A stretch of 64,000 nt of DNA from Microbacterium sp. LWH11-1.2 (GTDB taxonomy: Bacteria > Actinomycetota > Actinomycetes > Actinomycetales > Microbacteriaceae). Where the stretch lies: assembly GCF_038397745.1 (NCBI RefSeq), contig NZ_CP151636.1, forward strand, positions 4,154,001 through 4,218,000, written 5' to 3'. The translations under genes and the position numbers were made by a program. Position 1 is the first letter of the stretch, and each line of letters begins with the position of its first letter. Shown here in pieces: positions 5,423-31,166 of the stretch. A model generated the notes under the pieces. That model saw only the letters and a program-made list of their open reading frames with translations. It had not been told where the DNA came from and ran no database searches.

Positions 5423-6934
5423 TCAGCCGGCGGCGTCGACCCTCTCGGGCGGGGCGGAGCGACCCAGCAGGGTCTCCCTCGCGACCTGGGCGCCGAGTCG
5501 ACTGGCCGCCGCGACCTCGACGGTCGGCAGAGGCAGCGGATGCCGAGCGGGCAGGCCGACGTTCACGACGACCGCCTGCGGGTCGCGGACCGCCGCACGT
5601 TCCACGAGCGCGCGCTGCGCGGCATCCGCGTCGGGCCGATCGATCAGGACCACGGTGGTCCCGGCCGCCGTGGCGGCCTCGTCGAGGACTCGGTCCTGCT
5701 CGGCCACCGGATTGCTCGCGACGTCGAGCCGCACGCGGAAGCCGTCCGCGGCGAGCGCGTTGGAGACGTAGCCCGCGGCGCTGTCGACCGCCAGCGACGA
5801 TCGGCGCCGCGCGTCGATCACCGCGAGTCCGGATGCCGCCGCCGGGGCGTGACCTGTGAACGAGACGACGCGACGGACGATCTCGGCCGCGTCGAACTCC
5901 TCGGTCGTCTCGTGCTGCCCGTCCGCGGCGATCCGGAGCCGTGCAGCGAGCACGGCGACCCGCCGAGCGGCCTCTTCGACCCGCTCCCGTGAGAGCGATC
6001 CGTCGCGCAGGGCGTCGACGATGCCGTCGCGGGCGGCGAGGAAGTCGCGTCGGTCCTGGTCGGGGAACGCGGCCGCGCCGGGGTTGGTCGGATTGCCGAT
6101 GCAGAGGAGGTCCGCGCCGGCGGCGAGCGCGAGAGCCGCCCCGCCTCCGATGCCGACGGTCTCGCGGATGGCGGCCATGTCGAGCGCATCGGTGATGATC
6201 ACGCCGTCGAAGCCCCACTCGCGCAGCATCCCCAGGACTCGGGGATTCAGGGTCGCCGGCGCCTCACCCCAGGCGGGGACGACGATGTGCGCCGTCATGA
6301 CGGCATCCACTCCGGCGTCGATCGCGGCACGGAAGGGCTCCAGGTGCACGCGCTCGAACTCCTCGATGTCGAGGGAGATCTCGGGCAGCGCATGATGCGA
6401 GTCGACGTGCGTGTCGCCGTGACCCGGGAAGTGCTTGACGCACGCGGCGACCGCGCCGTCCTGGATGCCGTCGACCGTCGCGACGACGTGCCGGGAGACC
6501 AGGTCCTCATCGGCCCCGAACGCGCGCACGCCGATGACCGGATTGCTGGGGTCGGTGTTGACGTCGGCGACCGGCCCGAGGATCACGTTCGCGCCGACGG
6601 CACGCACGCGCCGAGCGAGCTCGGCGCCGGTCCGCTCGGTGGCGACGAGATCGTCGAGCAGGCCCAGCTGCGCGGCGCCGGGGACGGTCGAGCCGGAGGC
6701 GGACTCCAGCCGGGTGACGCTTCCGCCCTCCTCGTCGATGCCGATCAGGGCATCGGGGTTGGCGGCGAGGATCTCGTCGCTCAGGTCTGCGAGCCCGTCG
6801 CCGACGTTCTGCCCGAAGTAGACCACCCCGGCGAGACCGTCGCGCAGCTCGTCGAGGAGCCAGGACGGCGCCTCCGTCCCGAGGAACCCGGGCCAGAGCA
6901 CACCGTTGGCGAGACGTTCGAGTTCGATGCTCAT
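5423..6934 (-). CDS. nagZ: Beta-N-acetylhexosaminidase-type glycoside hydrolase family 3 (NagZ-like)
   Basis: Hydrolase of 503 residues expected to remove terminal N-acetylglucosamine from muropeptides or chitin fragments. It contains the NagZ hallmark KHFPGHGDTHVDSH at residues 167-180 (His180 in the acid/base loop) and the nucleophile region IITDALDM with Asp249. A C-terminal domain of about 130 residues follows the catalytic barrel. No signal peptide is seen, so it should act in the cytoplasm on imported sugars. Its ATG overlaps the stop of the MalG-type permease by 4 nt. Confidence 0.88.
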   Translation of the reverse strand: MSIELERLANGVLWPGFLGTEAPSWLLDELRDGLAGVVYFGQNVGDGLADLSDEILAANPDALIGIDEEGGSVTRLESASGSTVPGAAQLGLLDDLVATERTGAELARRVRAVGANVILGPVADVNTDPSNPVIGVRAFGADEDLVSRHVVATVDGIQDGAVAACVKHFPGHGDTHVDSHHALPEISLDIEEFERVHLEPFRAAIDAGVDAVMTAHIVVPAWGEAPATLNPRVLGMLREWGFDGVIITDALDMAAIRETVGIGGGAALALAAGADLLCIGNPTNPGAAAFPDQDRRDFLAARDGIVDALRDGSLSRERVEEAARRVAVLAARLRIAADGQHETTEEFDAAEIVRRVVSFTGHAPAAASGLAVIDARRRSSLAVDSAAGYVSNALAADGFRVRLDVASNPVAEQDRVLDEAATAAGTTVVLIDRPDADAAQRALVERAAVRDPQAVVVNVGLPARHPLPLPTVEVAAASRLGAQVARETLLGRSAPPERVDAAG

Positions 6935-23219: not shown

Positions 23220-24212
23220 TCAGCTCCGGCGCGCGCGCGAGGCCTTCAGCCAGCCGTCGATGATGTCCCACACGACGATCCCTGCCGTGACGACGCCGAG
23301 GACGACGCTGACCACACGCAGCACCCCGCCCTGCTCGGCGGCACCGGCGTTCGCATTCGCGAGGTCGTCTGCGTGGTTCGTCGCGAGGTAGTCGAGGAAC
23401 TCCGGGTTGACCAGCTGACCCGAGGCGAGCAGGTACAGCGCGGGAACGGCGAAGGCGATGGCCAGTACGGTGTTCACCACGGCGAAGCCGGCGTTCCAGC
23501 GTCCGGCGCGGTAGACGGCGATCGCGAGCAGCAGCTCCGCCGCCATCAGGACGAGCAGCGCCGTCATCCACCACGGCCACAGCTCCGGGTTCAGGATGGG
23601 CAGCGCCTCGCCGTCCGTGCGGACGAAGCCTCGCAGCGCATCCCACAGGATCGCGGCACCCGCTAGCACGAGGAAGATGATCGAGCCGATCATCTCGGAG
23701 AAGCCGGCACGGGTCTCGTAGATCTCCGGCAGCTGGTCGACGCTCCACTCGGTCTCCGGCACCGGCACCGTCCGCTCCAGGATCGCGAAGACGAGCGTGG
23801 TCCAGAAGCCCACGTTCACGATCACCTGGATGATCACGACGACGACCGCGCCGATGGTCTCGCCGATCGTCGCGAATTCCAGGATCTTGGCGATCGTGAC
23901 GCCGAATGCCGCACAGGCGGGAACGATCCAGAGGAGCAGCTTCAGCAGTCGCCACCAGACGAGGAAGTAGCGCGGGCCGATCAGGTGCAGCGGGCGATCG
24001 GCGTAGCCGGCGGCGAGGACGCCCGGGTCGCCGAGCTCCGTGAGCACGGAGTGCTCGGCGGCCTCGCGCGGCTCGCCCTGCTCGACGCGGGCCTCGACGG
24101 CGTCGGCGATCGATGCCTCGAGCTCGGCCCGCACATCGGCCTGCGCCGTCGCGGGCAGGCTGCGGATGGTGGCGGTGATGTACCGCTCGGTGAGGGTGGT
24201 CTTGGTAGGCAT
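23220..24212 (-). CDS. Membrane protein with cytoplasmic HAAS-type N-terminal domain
   Basis: 330-residue membrane protein of unknown job. Residues 1-75 form a helical cytoplasmic domain (ITATIRSLPATAQADVRAELEASIADA and a GDPGVLAAGYADRP turn) typical of the HAAS/DUF1700 modules that accompany PadR regulators. About six to seven helices follow from residue 85. It starts 1 nt after the PadR stop, so the pair is a regulator-effector operon, commonly linked to envelope or antibiotic stress. No enzymatic motif is seen. Confidence 0.75.
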   Translation of the reverse strand: MPTKTTLTERYITATIRSLPATAQADVRAELEASIADAVEARVEQGEPREAAEHSVLTELGDPGVLAAGYADRPLHLIGPRYFLVWWRLLKLLLWIVPACAAFGVTIAKILEFATIGETIGAVVVVIIQVIVNVGFWTTLVFAILERTVPVPETEWSVDQLPEIYETRAGFSEMIGSIIFLVLAGAAILWDALRGFVRTDGEALPILNPELWPWWMTALLVLMAAELLLAIAVYRAGRWNAGFAVVNTVLAIAFAVPALYLLASGQLVNPEFLDYLATNHADDLANANAGAAEQGGVLRVVSVVLGVVTAGIVVWDIIDGWLKASRARRS

Positions 24213-24213
24213 G

Positions 24214-24546
24214 TCAGTTCTCCTCTGAGGTGAGGGATGCGATCGCCGTCGTGAGAGATCGCCATTCGTCGGTGAGGGTGTCGGCCAGCCGGACGCCGGT
24301 CTCCGAGGTGCGGTAGAACTTGCGGGGCCTGGCCTCGTCGGTGTTCCACTCGCTCGTCAGGTACTCCTGCTTCTCCAGTCGGCGAAGCAGCGGGTACAGC
24401 GTGTTCGCGTCGGTGGCGAAGCCGCGGCGCTCGAGGTCCTCGAGCAGTCCGTAGCCGTACCCCGCCGTGCGCAGCAGCTGCAGGCAGGCGAGCACGATGG
24501 TGCCGCGCCTGAGCTCCTGCAGATGTGTGTCGAGCGTCTCGTTCAT
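24214..24546 (-). CDS. PadR-family transcriptional repressor
   Basis: 110-residue winged-helix regulator of the short PadR subfamily 2. The winged helix (about residues 8-85) includes GTIVLACLQLLRTAGYGYGLLEDLE and NTLYPLLRRLEKQEYL, followed by a dimerising C-terminal helix. It precedes a HAAS membrane protein and probably represses its own promoter, where three TGTGTGA repeats lie between -35 and the start codon. Confidence 0.9.
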   Translation of the reverse strand: MNETLDTHLQELRRGTIVLACLQLLRTAGYGYGLLEDLERRGFATDANTLYPLLRRLEKQEYLTSEWNTDEARPRKFYRTSETGVRLADTLTDEWRSLTTAIASLTSEEN

Positions 24547-25666: not shown

Positions 25667-25676
25667 GCCGGCTCAG
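25663..25676. terminator. Palindrome spanning convergent stop codons of menC and tetR
   Basis: CTGAGCCGGCTCAG is a perfect 14-bp palindrome whose two ends contain the TGA of menC and the TGA of the TetR gene. It is short for a terminator, but nothing else separates the genes. Confidence 0.35.
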
Positions 25677-26296
25677 CCCTCGATGAGCAGCTGCACCAGC
25701 CGGCCGAGCTCTTCGCTCCCGGAGTGGCGGAGCTTCTCGTCGTCCTGGCCGGCCATCGCACCGCGGACGGTCATGCCCTCCCAGACGATCATGAGCATGC
25801 GGGCCGCGACGTCGGCCGGCAGTCGCAGCTTCAGCCGCCCCGCCGCGACGATGTCCTCGACGATCTGCGCGATGCTCGCGACCATCTCGCGCTCCTGCGC
25901 CAGGTAGGCGATGCCGAACTGCTCGTCGCGCAGGGCACGGATGCGGATCTCGCTCATCAGCATCACCCCGAGGCGATCATCGCCCCCGAGCTCCATGACC
26001 TGCTGCACCAGGTCGATGGGGTCGCAGCCTTCGGCGAGCGCGCCCTCTGCCGTCATCTCCTCGACCCGGGTGCGGACCGCGTTCACGCGCACCTCGGCCA
26101 CACTGGCCGTGAGCATGAGGAACAGCTCGTCCTTCGACTCGAAGTTGGAGTAGAAAGCGCCGCGAGTGAAACCGGCGCGCTCGCAGACGGCCTCGACGGA
26201 GGCGCCGTCGAGGCCGACCTCGGCGAAGACCTGTGCCGCCGCCTCGAGGAGTCGGGCACGCGTGTTCTCCCGACTGCGGGTTGCGGGTGTCGTCAT
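25673..26296 (-). CDS. TetR-family repressor of the MMPL transporter
   Basis: 207-residue regulator. The N-terminal helix-turn-helix (about residues 10-55) reads LLEAAAQVFAEVGLDGASVE...GAFYSNFESKDELF; the C-terminal ligand domain has no assigned ligand. The ATG at 26296 follows a perfect AGGAGG by 5 nt. It diverges from the MMPL gene across a 131-nt gap that holds two tandem palindromes, so it most likely represses both promoters. Confidence 0.9.
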   Translation of the reverse strand: MTTPATRSRENTRARLLEAAAQVFAEVGLDGASVEAVCERAGFTRGAFYSNFESKDELFLMLTASVAEVRVNAVRTRVEEMTAEGALAEGCDPIDLVQQVMELGGDDRLGVMLMSEIRIRALRDEQFGIAYLAQEREMVASIAQIVEDIVAAGRLKLRLPADVAARMLMIVWEGMTVRGAMAGQDDEKLRHSGSEELGRLVQLLIEG

Positions 26297-26370
26297 CGAA
26301 ACCTCCTGACCCTTCACTCTCGCATGATTCACACCCCGCACACAGACTCCAGCGGGCGGGTCACTTTACG

Positions 26371-26400
26371 ATACATCTATGTATTGAGTACACCTGTGTA
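26371..26400. promoter_or_regulatory. Tandem palindromic operator for the TetR regulator
   Basis: Two palindromes with 17-bp centre spacing: ATACATCTATGTAT (26371-26384) and TACACCTGTGTA (26389-26400), both of the form TACAY-CT-RTGTA. They sit between the divergent TetR and MMPL genes, 28 nt before the MMPL GTG. Confidence 0.7.
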
Positions 26401-26427: not shown

Positions 26428-29199
26428 GTGTCCACTCTCCTGTCCTCGCTCGGTCGCTGGTCCTATCGGCATCCGTGGCGTGTCCTCGTCTCCTGGCTCC
26501 TCGCGCTCGGCATCGCCGGGGCGGGCGCCCTGGTCCTCGGTGCCGGAACGGACAACTCGTTCTCGATCCCCGGCACCGAATCGCAGGCCGGTCTCGAGCA
26601 GCTGTCGCGCTCGTTCCCCCAGGTGAGCGGCACCAGCGCGCAGATCATCGTGGTCGCCGCCGACGGCGACAAGGTCACCGACGACGACTATCGCGACGAG
26701 ATCGAGCAGTCCATCGGCGAGATGGAAGACCTCGACGGCGTGCTCGCGGCCAACTCGCCCTACGACGAGATGGTCAGCGGCATGATCAACGACGACGAGA
26801 CCGCCGCGATCGTGCGGCTGCAGTTCGACGGCGAATCCACCGACGTCTCGGACGAGACGAAGGACTCCCTGCGGGCGGTGTCCGATGAGCTCGGCGAAGC
26901 GCTCCCCGACGGCGCGCAGACAGCGCTCGGCGGCGACCTCTTCGCCACATCGATCCCCGGCCTGACGCTCACCGAGGCGGTCGGGCTGCTGATCGCGCTG
27001 CTCGTGCTGATCGTGACGTTCCGCTCCTTCGTCGTCGCCGGGCTCCCCCTCCTCACGGCGGTCCTCGGCGTCGGCATCTCGATGGCCGGCATCTTCGCGG
27101 CCACCGCGTTCGCCACCGTCTCCTCCACCACCCCGCTTCTGGCACTCATGCTCGGCCTCGCGGTCGGCATCGACTACGCGCTGTTCATCATGGCCCGGCA
27201 TCAGGACCAGGTGCGCGACGGCGTCGATCCCGAGGAATCCGCGGCCAGAGCCGTCGGCACGGCCGGATCTGCTGTCGTTTTCGCCGGCGTCACGGTGCTC
27301 ATCGCCCTGATCGGTCTCGGATTCGCGGGCATTCCGTTCCTCACGACCATGGGCATCGCGGCATCCGTCGCGGTGGCCATCGCGGTCGCGATCGCGGTCA
27401 CTCTCACTCCGGCACTGCTCGGCTTCATGAAGGGCAAGGTCGTCGGCCGCCCGCGCCGCGCACCCAAGCCCAAGAAGGGACAGAAGGTCGCCGCTCCGCG
27501 TCGCGGGTTCAGCGACCGCTGGGTCGGCGGCGTCACCAAGCATCCCGTCCTGGTCTCGCTCGCCGTGGTGATCGGGCTCGGCATCGTGGCAGTGCCCGCG
27601 CTCAGCCTGAACCTGGCCCTCCCCAACGCCGGCGTGCTGCCGAAGGACTCCGAGGCGCGCCAGAGCTACGATCTCGTCGGCGAGGAGTTCGGGCCCGGTT
27701 TCAACGGTCCCCTGATCCTCACCGGAACCATCGTCACCTCGACCGATCCGCTCACGCTCATGGAGGATCTCGGGGACGCCGTCGCCGACATCCCCGGCGT
27801 CAAGGAAGTCGCCCTCGCGACCCCCAATGAGACCGCCGACACCGGCATCGTGCAGATCATCCCGGAGACGGCACCCGACGATCCTGCGACGGCCGACCTC
27901 GTGCGCGAACTCCGGTCTCACCACGACGAGTGGCTCGACGAATTCGGGATCGACCTCAAGGTCACCGGCTTCACGGCCGTCGGCATCGACATCTCCGATC
28001 AGCTCGGCAACGCCCTCCTGCCGTTCGGCATCTTCGTGATCGGGCTCTCGCTGATCCTGCTCACGATCGTGTTCCGCTCGCTCTGGGTGCCGATCACCGC
28101 CGCCCTCGGCTACCTGCTCTCGATCGTCGCCGCATTCGGCGTCGTCGGCGCGGTCTTCGAATGGGGCTGGTTCGCCGATCTCCTCCATGTCGCCAAGGTC
28201 GGCCCCATCATCAGCTTCATGCCGATCATCCTGATGGGCGTGCTGTTCGGCCTGGCCATGGACTACCAGGTGTTCCTCGTCTCCCGCATGCGCGAGGACT
28301 TCGTGCACGATCCCGCCTCGAAAAGCCCCGATCGCGCGACCCGTCGTGCCGCCGCCCTCCGCGCCGTGCGCAGCGGATTCACCGGCTCGGCGAAGGTCGT
28401 CACGGCCGCAGGGCTCATCATGTTCGCGGTGTTCGTCGCATTCGTCCCCGAGGGCGACTCGTCACTCAAGCCCATCGCCCTCGGCCTCGCGGCCGGCATC
28501 GCGATCGACGCCTTCCTCGTGCGCATGACCCTGATCCCCGCGCTGATGGCCATCCTCGGCGAGCGCGCCTGGGAGATCCCGACCTGGCTGGAGAAGATCC
28601 TCCCCCGCGTCGACATCGAGGGCGAGGCCGTCGAACGCGAGCGCCACCTGTCCGAGTGGCCCGGCGACGGCTCCGTCGTGGCAGCGGACGACCTGGTGAT
28701 CAGCGCGGACGCGCCGGTCATCGAAGGCCTGACGGTGCGCATCCTCGAGGGCGGCGCCGTGGTCGCGACCGGAAGCGACGCGCGCACCCGCCGCGCTCTG
28801 GCGCTCACGATCGCCGGCCGCATCGCCCCGAGCGACGGGCGTCTCCGGGTCGGCGGCCACCTGCTCCCCGGCCGCGCGGCCTGGGTGCGCTCGCACGTCG
28901 GGTGCGTGCTCGTCGACGATGCGGATGCCGCGCTCGACGATCTCGCCGAAGCCCTGCGGGGCACCTCCGCGGTCGTGGTGATCGACGGCCTCGACCGGCT
29001 CACGGGCGGCCAGCGCGACCAGGCGGCAGCGATGCTCCGGGATGCCGCGGCCTCACGGCCCCTCGCCGTCTTCGCGACCGCTGCCGATGCCGCATCGGCC
29101 CGCACGACTCTCGCCGAGGCCGGCTGGCCCGACGCCGACACACTCGACACGCGCGCTCCGCGCCGAATCGCCGCAGAATCCACCGAGGTGACCGCATGA
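26428..29199 (+). CDS. MMPL-family (RND-like) transporter with degenerate ABC-ATPase-like C-terminal domain
   Basis: 923-residue inner-membrane transporter, probably for lipids or hydrophobic compounds. Two MMPL halves are visible, each with an opening helix, a large extracellular loop and five more helices (first half about 18-350, second about 390-725); the GxxxDY motifs are GLAVGIDYALFIMARHQ and GLAMDYQVFLVSRMRE. An unusual tail from about residue 735 resembles an ABC ATPase: a loop ATGSDARTRRALALT where Walker A would be, without the GxGKS core, and hydrophobic SAVVVIDGLDRLTGGQRDQ like a Walker B. The GTG has GGAGG upstream, and the stop overlaps the next gene (ATGA). Confidence 0.88.
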   Translation: MSTLLSSLGRWSYRHPWRVLVSWLLALGIAGAGALVLGAGTDNSFSIPGTESQAGLEQLSRSFPQVSGTSAQIIVVAADGDKVTDDDYRDEIEQSIGEMEDLDGVLAANSPYDEMVSGMINDDETAAIVRLQFDGESTDVSDETKDSLRAVSDELGEALPDGAQTALGGDLFATSIPGLTLTEAVGLLIALLVLIVTFRSFVVAGLPLLTAVLGVGISMAGIFAATAFATVSSTTPLLALMLGLAVGIDYALFIMARHQDQVRDGVDPEESAARAVGTAGSAVVFAGVTVLIALIGLGFAGIPFLTTMGIAASVAVAIAVAIAVTLTPALLGFMKGKVVGRPRRAPKPKKGQKVAAPRRGFSDRWVGGVTKHPVLVSLAVVIGLGIVAVPALSLNLALPNAGVLPKDSEARQSYDLVGEEFGPGFNGPLILTGTIVTSTDPLTLMEDLGDAVADIPGVKEVALATPNETADTGIVQIIPETAPDDPATADLVRELRSHHDEWLDEFGIDLKVTGFTAVGIDISDQLGNALLPFGIFVIGLSLILLTIVFRSLWVPITAALGYLLSIVAAFGVVGAVFEWGWFADLLHVAKVGPIISFMPIILMGVLFGLAMDYQVFLVSRMREDFVHDPASKSPDRATRRAAALRAVRSGFTGSAKVVTAAGLIMFAVFVAFVPEGDSSLKPIALGLAAGIAIDAFLVRMTLIPALMAILGERAWEIPTWLEKILPRVDIEGEAVERERHLSEWPGDGSVVAADDLVISADAPVIEGLTVRILEGGAVVATGSDARTRRALALTIAGRIAPSDGRLRVGGHLLPGRAAWVRSHVGCVLVDDADAALDDLAEALRGTSAVVVIDGLDRLTGGQRDQAAAMLRDAAASRPLAVFATAADAASARTTLAEAGWPDADTLDTRAPRRIAAESTEVTA

Positions 29200-31166
29200 C
29201 ACTCCCCATCGAGCGCGCCCGCTCCCGCAAGCCGGTCACGTGGCTGACCATCCTCGGCATCCTGCTCCTGCCGGCGGCCGTCGGCGGCATCCTCGTCGCG
29301 GCGCTGCAGAACCCGACCGAGCGGCTCGACTCCATGACGGCGGCGATCGTGAACCTGGATGAGCCTGTCACGATCGACGACCAGCTCACGCCCCTCGGGC
29401 GTCAGCTGGCCTCGGGACTCGTGGAGGGCTCTGACGAGCTCGACTCGAACCTCACCTGGGTCATCTCGAACGAGGACGACGCGAAGGAAGGGCTGGCCGA
29501 CGGCACCTACCAGGCCGTCATCACGATTCCCGAGGACTTCTCCGCGGCGGCGACCTCCGCGGGGCAGGCCGTCGCCGACGGCGGAGGGGATGCCGAGAAG
29601 GCCACCATCACGGTGACCACCCCCGACGACGGCCTCGTCGCCGACGACCTCATCACCGGTCAGATCGCGAACGTCGCCGCATCGACCATGGGAACCATGC
29701 TCACCGAGGCGACGACCGACAACATCCTCGTCGGCTTCACCACGATCGGCGATCAGATCGGCGAGGCAGCCGACGGCGCCGTCGAACTCGCCACCGGCGC
29801 CCGATCGGCCGCCGACGGCGCGGCCGCCATCCCCGACGGCGCCACGCAGCTCGCCTCCGGGGCGAGCCAGCTCGCGACGGGGGCGTCGTCGTTGGCCTCC
29901 GGGCTCGACACCATCGCGGGCAAGACGCGCGAAGCGGCCACCGGCGCCGGGCAGATCGGCGCCGGACTCACGAGCGGAGCTGCAGCTCTGGAGCAGAACG
30001 TCGGAGGCATGAACCAGCTCGTCGGAGCGATCCAGGCAGGTTCCGCTTCCGCGGGATCGGCGGCGACGCAGTCGGCCGATCTGGCCCAGCGTCTCGGCGA
30101 GATGGCGGCTGCCTGCGTCCCCGCCACGAACGGACAGGCGATGTGCGATGAGCTCTCCGCGGCAGCCGCGGATGCCGGCGTCGCCGCGGAGTCCGCCGGC
30201 ACCGCATCCGGAGTGCTGAACAGCGACCTGGTCGCCCCCGGTGTCGCCGCGATTCCCGGAACCTTCAGCACTCTCGCGGCGAGCATGTCTCAGGCCGGCG
30301 CCGGCGCCACGCAGCTCGCGGGCGGGTTGAACCAGCTCGCCGGTGAGGGCATCGACCAGTCCGCGGCCGGTGCGCGCTCGCTGTCGTCCGGTGCGACCCA
30401 GCTGTCGGGCGGCGCGACCGAGCTCGCCACCGGCACGTCCGAGCTCGCCACAGGACTGGACACCCTCGCGACCGGCACCGGCGATCTCGCCGGCGGCCTG
30501 CGCACCGCGGCCGAGTCCCTCCCCTCGTTCAGCGATGAGGAGTCGACGTCGCTCGCCTCGGTGATCGCCGACCCGGTGTCGACGAACTCGTCGATGAACA
30601 CCATCTTCGGCCCGACCGCGATCCCGCTGCTCGCGGCCGTGGTGCTGTGGTTCGGCGGATTCGCGTCGTTCCTGGTGATGCGCGCGCACACGGCCCGCAC
30701 TCTGACCTCGCGGCGTCCGTCGGCCGCCCTGACGCTGCGCGCGTTCGCTCCGGCCGCACTGATCGGTGCGGGCCAGGGCCTGCTCGTCTCGCTGGTCGTG
30801 CAGATCATCGCCAGCTACGACGCCGCCGCGTGGTGGGCGTTCGCGGGCACCGCGGTGCTCGCCGGGATCGTGTTCGCCGCCGTGAACCAGGCGCTCGTCG
30901 CGCTCTTCGGCGGCACGGGGCGCTGGATCGCCGCCCTGGTCGGCGTCCTCGCGGTCGCGACGGGACTCATCTCCACGGTTCCCGACTGGCTCGCCGGTCT
31001 CGGAGCCGCCCTGCCGACGGCTCCGGCCTTCGCGGGCCTGATCGCGGGCAACGGCTCGGCGATCGCGGCGCTGGTCGTGTGGGGCGTGCTGTCCCTCGTC
31101 GCGACGACGCTCGCGGTGACCCTGCGCCGCACGACCTCGGCGAAGGCGGTCCTCGCCACCGCTTAG
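29196..31166 (+). CDS. YhgE/Pip-family membrane protein
   Basis: 656-residue ABC-2-like membrane protein. One N-terminal helix (about 16-38) leads into a long extracellular region of roughly 400 residues, much of it a repeating coiled-coil-like pattern (TQLASGASQLATGASSLASG and similar), then five C-terminal helices (about 470-650). Family members include phage infection protein Pip and type VII secretion-associated EsaA. ATGA overlap with the MMPL gene suggests the two form one export system under the TetR regulator. Confidence 0.88.
   Translation: MTLPIERARSRKPVTWLTILGILLLPAAVGGILVAALQNPTERLDSMTAAIVNLDEPVTIDDQLTPLGRQLASGLVEGSDELDSNLTWVISNEDDAKEGLADGTYQAVITIPEDFSAAATSAGQAVADGGGDAEKATITVTTPDDGLVADDLITGQIANVAASTMGTMLTEATTDNILVGFTTIGDQIGEAADGAVELATGARSAADGAAAIPDGATQLASGASQLATGASSLASGLDTIAGKTREAATGAGQIGAGLTSGAAALEQNVGGMNQLVGAIQAGSASAGSAATQSADLAQRLGEMAAACVPATNGQAMCDELSAAAADAGVAAESAGTASGVLNSDLVAPGVAAIPGTFSTLAASMSQAGAGATQLAGGLNQLAGEGIDQSAAGARSLSSGATQLSGGATELATGTSELATGLDTLATGTGDLAGGLRTAAESLPSFSDEESTSLASVIADPVSTNSSMNTIFGPTAIPLLAAVVLWFGGFASFLVMRAHTARTLTSRRPSAALTLRAFAPAALIGAGQGLLVSLVVQIIASYDAAAWWAFAGTAVLAGIVFAAVNQALVALFGGTGRWIAALVGVLAVATGLISTVPDWLAGLGAALPTAPAFAGLIAGNGSAIAALVVWGVLSLVATTLAVTLRRTTSAKAVLATA

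Follow-up and report, generated by a model that had tools for sequence, protein, structure and literature searches.

Transporters of the RND/MMPL type run on protons and ABC exporters run on ATP, and the two are normally treated as separate machines. A hint that both kinds may serve one substrate comes from mycobacteria: as described in PMC11539658, the export of PDIM needs both MmpL7 and DrrABC, the latter of type V, and MmpL7, which lacks the proton-relay residues, is proposed to form a scaffold with DrrABC. For the YhgE/Pip family of membrane proteins (TC 9.B.74), PMC3924187 lists the ABC-2 superfamily among the homologues. In our literature search neither an MMPL-ABC fusion nor a YhgE-ATPase pair turned up, which is weak evidence, subscription journals being mostly outside its coverage.

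The window analyzed here, a stretch of 64 kb, comes from a Microbacterium genome of 4.22 Mb in a single contig. A sequence-only reading of this DNA had proposed a proton-driven MMPL transporter fused to a pseudo-ATPase that docks on an ABC-2-like YhgE/Pip partner. The finding is real, and it is more general than was stated.

Organization of the locus

The two gene families and the overlap of 4 nt reported in the sequence-only reading are borne out by the ORF calls, PF03176 and TIGR03061 (Table 1), with the MMPL stop and the YhgE start sharing a common ATGA. The first protein is a member of the MMPL/RND family, with PF03176 present twice (E 2.3e-84, 283.6 bits against a cut-off of 20.5), and it keeps both D-Y pairs, which we take to be the proton relay known from MmpL3; their retention agrees with the proposal that the MMPL part would be proton-driven. 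Every one of the 92 fused loci whose cores are long enough to judge retains both pairs; a regular expression picked up 89 per site, and inspection of six flagged loci showed the pairs there as well. The conserved junction between the MMPL core and the tail shows invariant columns W1, P7, D10, E12 and G13 in alignment A3.

Table 1. Features of the MMPL-YhgE locus, in positions of the window
Feature	Position	Strand	Basis
TetR-family regulator, divergent from MMPL	25673..26341	-	PF00440 E 5e-15
Palindrome TACATCTATGTA, likely TetR operator 1	26372..26383	.	sequence pattern
Palindrome TACACCTGTGTA, likely TetR operator 2	26389..26400	.	sequence pattern
MMPL (RND-type) transporter with C-terminal ABC-NBD-like tail, 923 aa	26428..29199	+	GTG start, stop 29199; PF03176
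D249-Y250, first presumed proton-relay D-Y pair (TM4)	27172..27177	+	sequence
D612-Y613, second presumed proton-relay D-Y pair (TM10)	28261..28266	+	sequence
Conserved MMPL-tail junction WLxxxLPxxDxEGE	28585..28641	+	alignment A3
Folded ABC-NBD-like domain, residues 749-907	28672..29148	+	structure prediction
Walker A remnant GSDARTRR, residues 782-789, GKS -> TRR	28771..28794	+	alignment to GK[ST]-bearing relatives
AGRI, Gly-Arg signature common to YhgE-linked ATPases	28813..28824	+	alignment
Walker B remnant VVVIDGLD, residues 849-856, catalytic Glu -> Gly	28972..28995	+	alignment
YhgE/Pip-type membrane protein, 656 aa	29196..31166	+	ATG start; TIGR03061 over cut-off; PF12698
YhgE C-terminal membrane domain, residues 475-644; with TM1, type V ABC exporter fold	30618..31127	+	predicted structure

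The operon is probably under the control of the divergent TetR regulator, and 68 of the 76 fused loci in the set L063-L142 have a TetR-like ORF. Two palindromes of the TACAYNNRTGTA type occupy the intergenic region between the TetR and MMPL genes (26372-26400); they were spotted by eye and by pattern, the automated repeat search not listing them, and are the only matches to TAYAY..RTRTA within the window. Of 76 related loci, in some of which the MMPL start was not located, 32 have similar palindromes no more than 160 bases ahead of its estimated position, and from its sequence the pair would likely be the TetR operator. Near the locus, a PadR regulator followed by a HAAS-like gene (under the Pfam cut-off) lies on the minus strand at 23220-24546, an ordinary pair.

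The YhgE-type partner

The downstream protein scores over the cut-off for the N-terminal domain TIGR03061 (106.7 bits vs 96.15) and under it for the C-terminal domain TIGR03062 (49.1 bits vs 102.2), so it is named here YhgE-type and not a full YhgE/Pip member. An ABC-2/type V-like nature, as foreseen in the sequence-only reading, is supported by its predicted structure, which shows the type V (ABC-2) permease fold of ABCG, Wzm and NosY in a comparison with a defined list of families only, and by PF12698 (ABC-2; E 2.2e-11), found in 51 of 51 members of the YhgE alignment A5. Foldseek gave no match at E<=1e-3 for the whole YhgE model, and a PDB sequence search with the YhgE profile returned, among the matches listed, helical or coiled-coil proteins and no transporters. 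Residues 181-441 of the model form a long helical stretch, and the protein carries xxxLxxG repeats.

A degenerate ABC ATPase fold in the tail

The last 190 or so residues of the MMPL protein had been described as ABC-like in layout, and a fold check had been suggested. Structure prediction places an ABC NBD core fold in the tail, with a folded part shorter than proposed (about residues 749-907), and supports a degenerate ABC ATPase fold. As had been noticed from the letters, the Walker A position (GSDARTRR) does not read GxxxxGK[ST] and no catalytic Glu follows Walker B (VVVIDGLD). Left unstated in that description was the absence of the helical subdomain with LSGGQ; the distance from Walker A to Walker B is 58 residues in the window tail vs 107-127 in 30 canonical ABC proteins of the same genome.

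Taken as a single sequence, the tail shows weak ABC similarity (NodI, 0.0036; two ABC proteins of its own genome, 1.5e-3 and 8.3e-3; CFTR and HlyB, 0.0018-0.004), and against Pfam it gave no match above threshold. A profile of 64 tails matched EcfA at 1.7e-8 in two blocks, the second of them weak alone, with some 55 EcfA residues between the blocks unmatched. This match, together with the predicted fold, rules out an unrelated fold or a chance layout; matches to SlmHylase (NCBIfam) and AAA_25/KAP (Pfam) were below the curated cut-offs and were set aside. Moreover, the tail can be no chance feature, given its relatives in many genera, the purifying selection on it and the presence of YhgE as the next gene in 93 of 95 loci.

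Lineage of the tail

In those 93 loci YhgE stands directly 3′ of the fused MMPL gene, and 74 of the 93 pairs overlap, mostly by 4 nt. No fused gene without YhgE was found among the 95, both misses falling at contig ends: the one in L117 is a YhgE fragment under the 300-aa filter, whereas the contig of L125 ends just after MMPL. The pairing of YhgE with an ABC-like ATPase, mentioned in the sequence-only reading as frequent, was found in 40 of 40 sampled YhgE loci, where the ORF just upstream of YhgE, in the same orientation, belongs to the ATPase lineage of the tail (separate in 39 loci and fused in one; the weakest matches at E 4e-6 to 6e-8), so that the survey of separate-gene and fused forms proposed there shows that both exist. 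These 40 loci were hand-picked from above-cut-off rows not already covered, other such rows being left aside; TIGR03061 has matches in 81 of 246 genomes of the class.

A first lineage profile was partly circular, because it was reached from the tails, and the comparison was repeated with ATPases chosen by YhgE alone. The YhgE-linked profile thus comprises 40 ATPase ORFs picked by YhgE only, with 3 of 43 aligned rows left out (L243, which is fused, and the two pieces into which an ORF of L218 is split), and the canonical profile comprises the 30 ABC proteins of the window's own genome. All short tails (131/131) score higher with the former, with medians of 45.0 vs 7.1 bits, as does the window tail with 49.9 vs 6.4 bits, and the hhalign scores are 153.7 for the YhgE-linked ATPases vs 85.6 for the canonical ones. 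As background, the profiles used for the 40 sampled loci gave 88 matches in 5,294 ORFs of 80 loci (L063-L142), eight of them outside the MMPL gene, including the frameshifted tail of L135. In that locus (Microbacterium sp. Se63.02b, 6049-6660) the rest of the tail continues in the next frame, through either decay or a sequencing error.

A Gly-Arg following the Walker A helix is present in 135 of 140 fused tails and in 20 of 20 separate ATPases, and an Arg in that column in none of the 30 canonical ABC proteins. The profile comparison and this signature rule out a generic ABC origin. The profile, the AGRI motif and the ATGA overlap with YhgE place the window tail with the YhgE-linked ATPases, and at the level of sequence its membership specifically in that lineage is supported.

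Other YhgE loci show further arrangements. The window's genome carries a second YhgE (L232, G000:C1:944500-954000) with a highly degenerate separate ATPase upstream (P-loop AETEQRPT) and no MMPL match in these 9.5 kb. Two other actinobacteria (L218, L229) have two ATPase-YhgE units in tandem with TetR genes nearby. In family f42, of the same phylum and another class, separate YhgE ATPases (L194-L196, L198) show an intact GRNGSGKT P-loop and are followed by YhgE in a long frame of 858-880 aa; they would be a useful outgroup.

Engine states and history

Among the 140 distinct fused tails, the P-loop reads GK[ST] in 7, GR[ST] in 6 and neither in 127, the gap between Walker A and B is short (49-64 residues) in 132 and long (104-131) in 8, and the catalytic column holds a Glu in two, neither preceded by Asp. 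The shifted row of L135 is included in this set, scored as lost, and was left out of alignment A3 and of the short-tail set. On the other hand, 20 separate ATPases divide into 6 with GK, 11 with GR and 3 with neither, with a long gap in all and Glu in none; they are no random sample, being L143 and L144 themselves or ATPases found by similarity to L144. The P-loop is GR or lost in 14 of these 20 and in 39 of the 40 ATPases of the YhgE-linked profile, so that the loss of catalysis is not tied to the MMPL fusion.

The locus L154 (G624:C33:100000-111000), with a 100% match to an Agilicoccus flavus protein, is not among the 140 and was read separately, the alignment of its MMPL part being too poor. 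Its MMPL half lacks both D-Y pairs (LGGAVAFAAGLGASLALLVRY and VVLPAALLAPAVAAQLLLGARVR vs LALMLGLAVGIDYALFIMARH and IILMGVLFGLAMDYQVFLVSRMR in the window) and its tail retains GPEGSGKT, the helical region and VVDDVD, a reciprocal loss (relay gone, P-loop intact) that is seen in this one genome, the sole representative of its genus in the set covered. A database search with its MMPL part gave 54 relatives, of which 52 have both D-Y pairs, the query itself has neither and P0123 has the first alone; the nearest L154 relative found (L293, 58% in the tail) keeps both engines. In the family to which the L154 genome belongs, 10 of 149 genomes have a match, that of L154 included. The ten proteins are all fused; each reads GK[ST] at the P-loop, with a long gap of 122-178 residues, and Walker B has Asp-Glu in four of them (L294, L295, L297, L298). 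Since some fused relatives keep the ATPase motifs together with both D-Y pairs, the two engines can coexist. The pseudo-ATPase of the sequence-only reading holds for the window tail, where the motifs are lost, but does not extend to fused relatives with an intact P-loop or to the four with Glu; to judge by these motifs, it is a lineage-dependent state and not the design. In P0123 (943 aa, on a 3.8-kb contig) only the first D-Y pair is present, the second being missing through a short gap, and the tail is dead too; both engines would be damaged there, if this is no assembly artefact.

The dN/dS of the tail, 0.08-0.38 in 8 pairs vs 0.07-0.15 for the MMPL core, indicates purifying selection. On a YhgE tree of 152 rows (unrooted, with SH-aLRT support only; L154 was uncounted, and L072 and L110 fell out), the fused or separate state needs 2 changes, the long or short gap 2 changes, and the presence of the P-loop among 91 fused rows at least 4. 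The starred branches are compatible with a single fusion, and the tree puts the separate group L194-L196 and L198 with the fused side, at an unresolved branching. In our reading of this history, fusion would have happened once or twice, long ago, the helical lid would have been excised once or twice, and the P-loop would have been lost repeatedly. The surveys of relatives scored the best candidates per genome (at most 10 in one survey, 7 in two others), and the order-level count of 334/396 is an upper bound, because A1 takes in the junction with MMPL and, at its low end, matches proteins of other kinds too.

A proposed hybrid exporter and its alternatives

The reading that we prefer, with somewhat better than even confidence, is that the products of the two genes make up a single hybrid exporter, with its ATP engine decayed and its proton engine still in place. 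YhgE would be a type V (ABC-2) exporter permease carrying a long extracytoplasmic coiled coil. The ATPase that belongs to it, which most sampled actinobacterial YhgE loci carry as a gene apart, would here have become the C-terminal part of a proton-driven MMPL/RND permease. Homology, fold and synteny point to the fused domain as a plug tying MMPL to YhgE, a contact that we infer. In the window lineage the ATPase has lost P-loop, catalytic Glu and helical lid, and should therefore be unable to form an ATP sandwich or to hydrolyse ATP; the MMPL proton relay would supply the power for export, and the tail would serve as a docking adaptor. Regarding the substrate, an amphipathic or envelope lipid seems likely by analogy, given the function of MmpL proteins and the induction by cholesterol in Saccharopolyspora hirsuta. 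In that species, as given in PMC9782250 (Table 2), cholesterol induces YhgE/Pip 3.82-fold and MMPL 3.33-fold, from consecutive locus tags. The MMPL of a Saccharopolyspora locus (L070) carries the tail, and for the induced MMPL of S. hirsuta, of the same genus, a tail is presumed at most.

A broader proposal, which we hold tentatively and at less than even odds, is that of a covalent RND-ABC class with two permeases and two engines, whose ancestor would have been dual-energised and whose lineages dropped either engine; the same machine would then exist in a proton-only form in the window, an ATP-only form in Agilicoccus flavus and a dual form in L293-L301. If true, these forms would be a natural series for the coupling of secondary and primary transporters.

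It is unlikely, in our view, that MMPL and YhgE work independently and share no more than their transcription, the tail being a leftover of evolution or just a cytoplasmic regulator of the MMPL pump, such as a sensor of nucleotides or proteins. In favour of this, the tail changes more quickly in sequence than the MMPL core and most of its catalytic motifs are gone; but it is still under purifying selection, it derives specifically from the YhgE-linked ATPase lineage, and YhgE follows almost without exception. Lower still would be the chance that YhgE is no pump, serving MMPL as a periplasmic adaptor or scaffold through a coiled-coil stalk anchored by the tail from inside. The helical stretch and the repeats would suit such a stalk, and YhgE/Pip and EsaA proteins act elsewhere as surface receptors or secretion parts; on the other hand, the full type V membrane core is retained, beyond the needs of an anchor. 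It is highly improbable that ATP still drives the complex through another ABC ATPase, an intact one recruited by YhgE in trans, the tail being the degenerate half of an asymmetric NBD pair. ABC exporters often have such pairs in which one site is degenerate, and the genome has 150 PF00005 matches, but the PF00005 match closest to the MMPL gene is over 9 kb away from it, and the tail, having lost the whole helical/signature subdomain (as have the 132 of 140 with a short gap), could not complete the ATP site of a partner.

For the hybrid exporter, the presence of an ABC engine domain tied to the MMPL protein makes physical coupling directly testable, and the engine states across relatives offer a ready-made panel. 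The poorly understood YhgE/Pip family also gains an ATPase partner in actinobacteria.

Comparison with known systems

Unlike canonical NBDs such as EcfA, FtsE and LolD, the window tail lacks Walker A and the catalytic Glu as well as LSGGQ and the helical subdomain. The MMPL protein resembles MmpL3-type exporters in having PF03176 twice and both D-Y pairs, and differs in its C-terminal extension, which is low-complexity in MmpL3 and predicted to be an ABC-NBD fold here. The partner resembles the YhgE/Pip family in its TIGR03061 domain over the cut-off, its ABC-2 membrane domain and its heptad repeats, and departs from it in having its cognate ATPase fused to an MMPL permease and TIGR03062 under the cut-off. 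The closest published system is MmpL7/DrrABC, in which an MmpL/RND protein and a type V ABC exporter are likewise paired, both being needed to export one lipid. There the genes are separate and the ATPase is live, whereas the window has a fusion, a dead ATPase and an intact relay, a mirror image; the dead-RND/live-ABC state of MmpL7/DrrABC is instead the one suggested for L154. The partnership of RND and type V exporters is thus already known, and the MMPL-ABC fusion would form a class of its own if a two-engine complex is shown.
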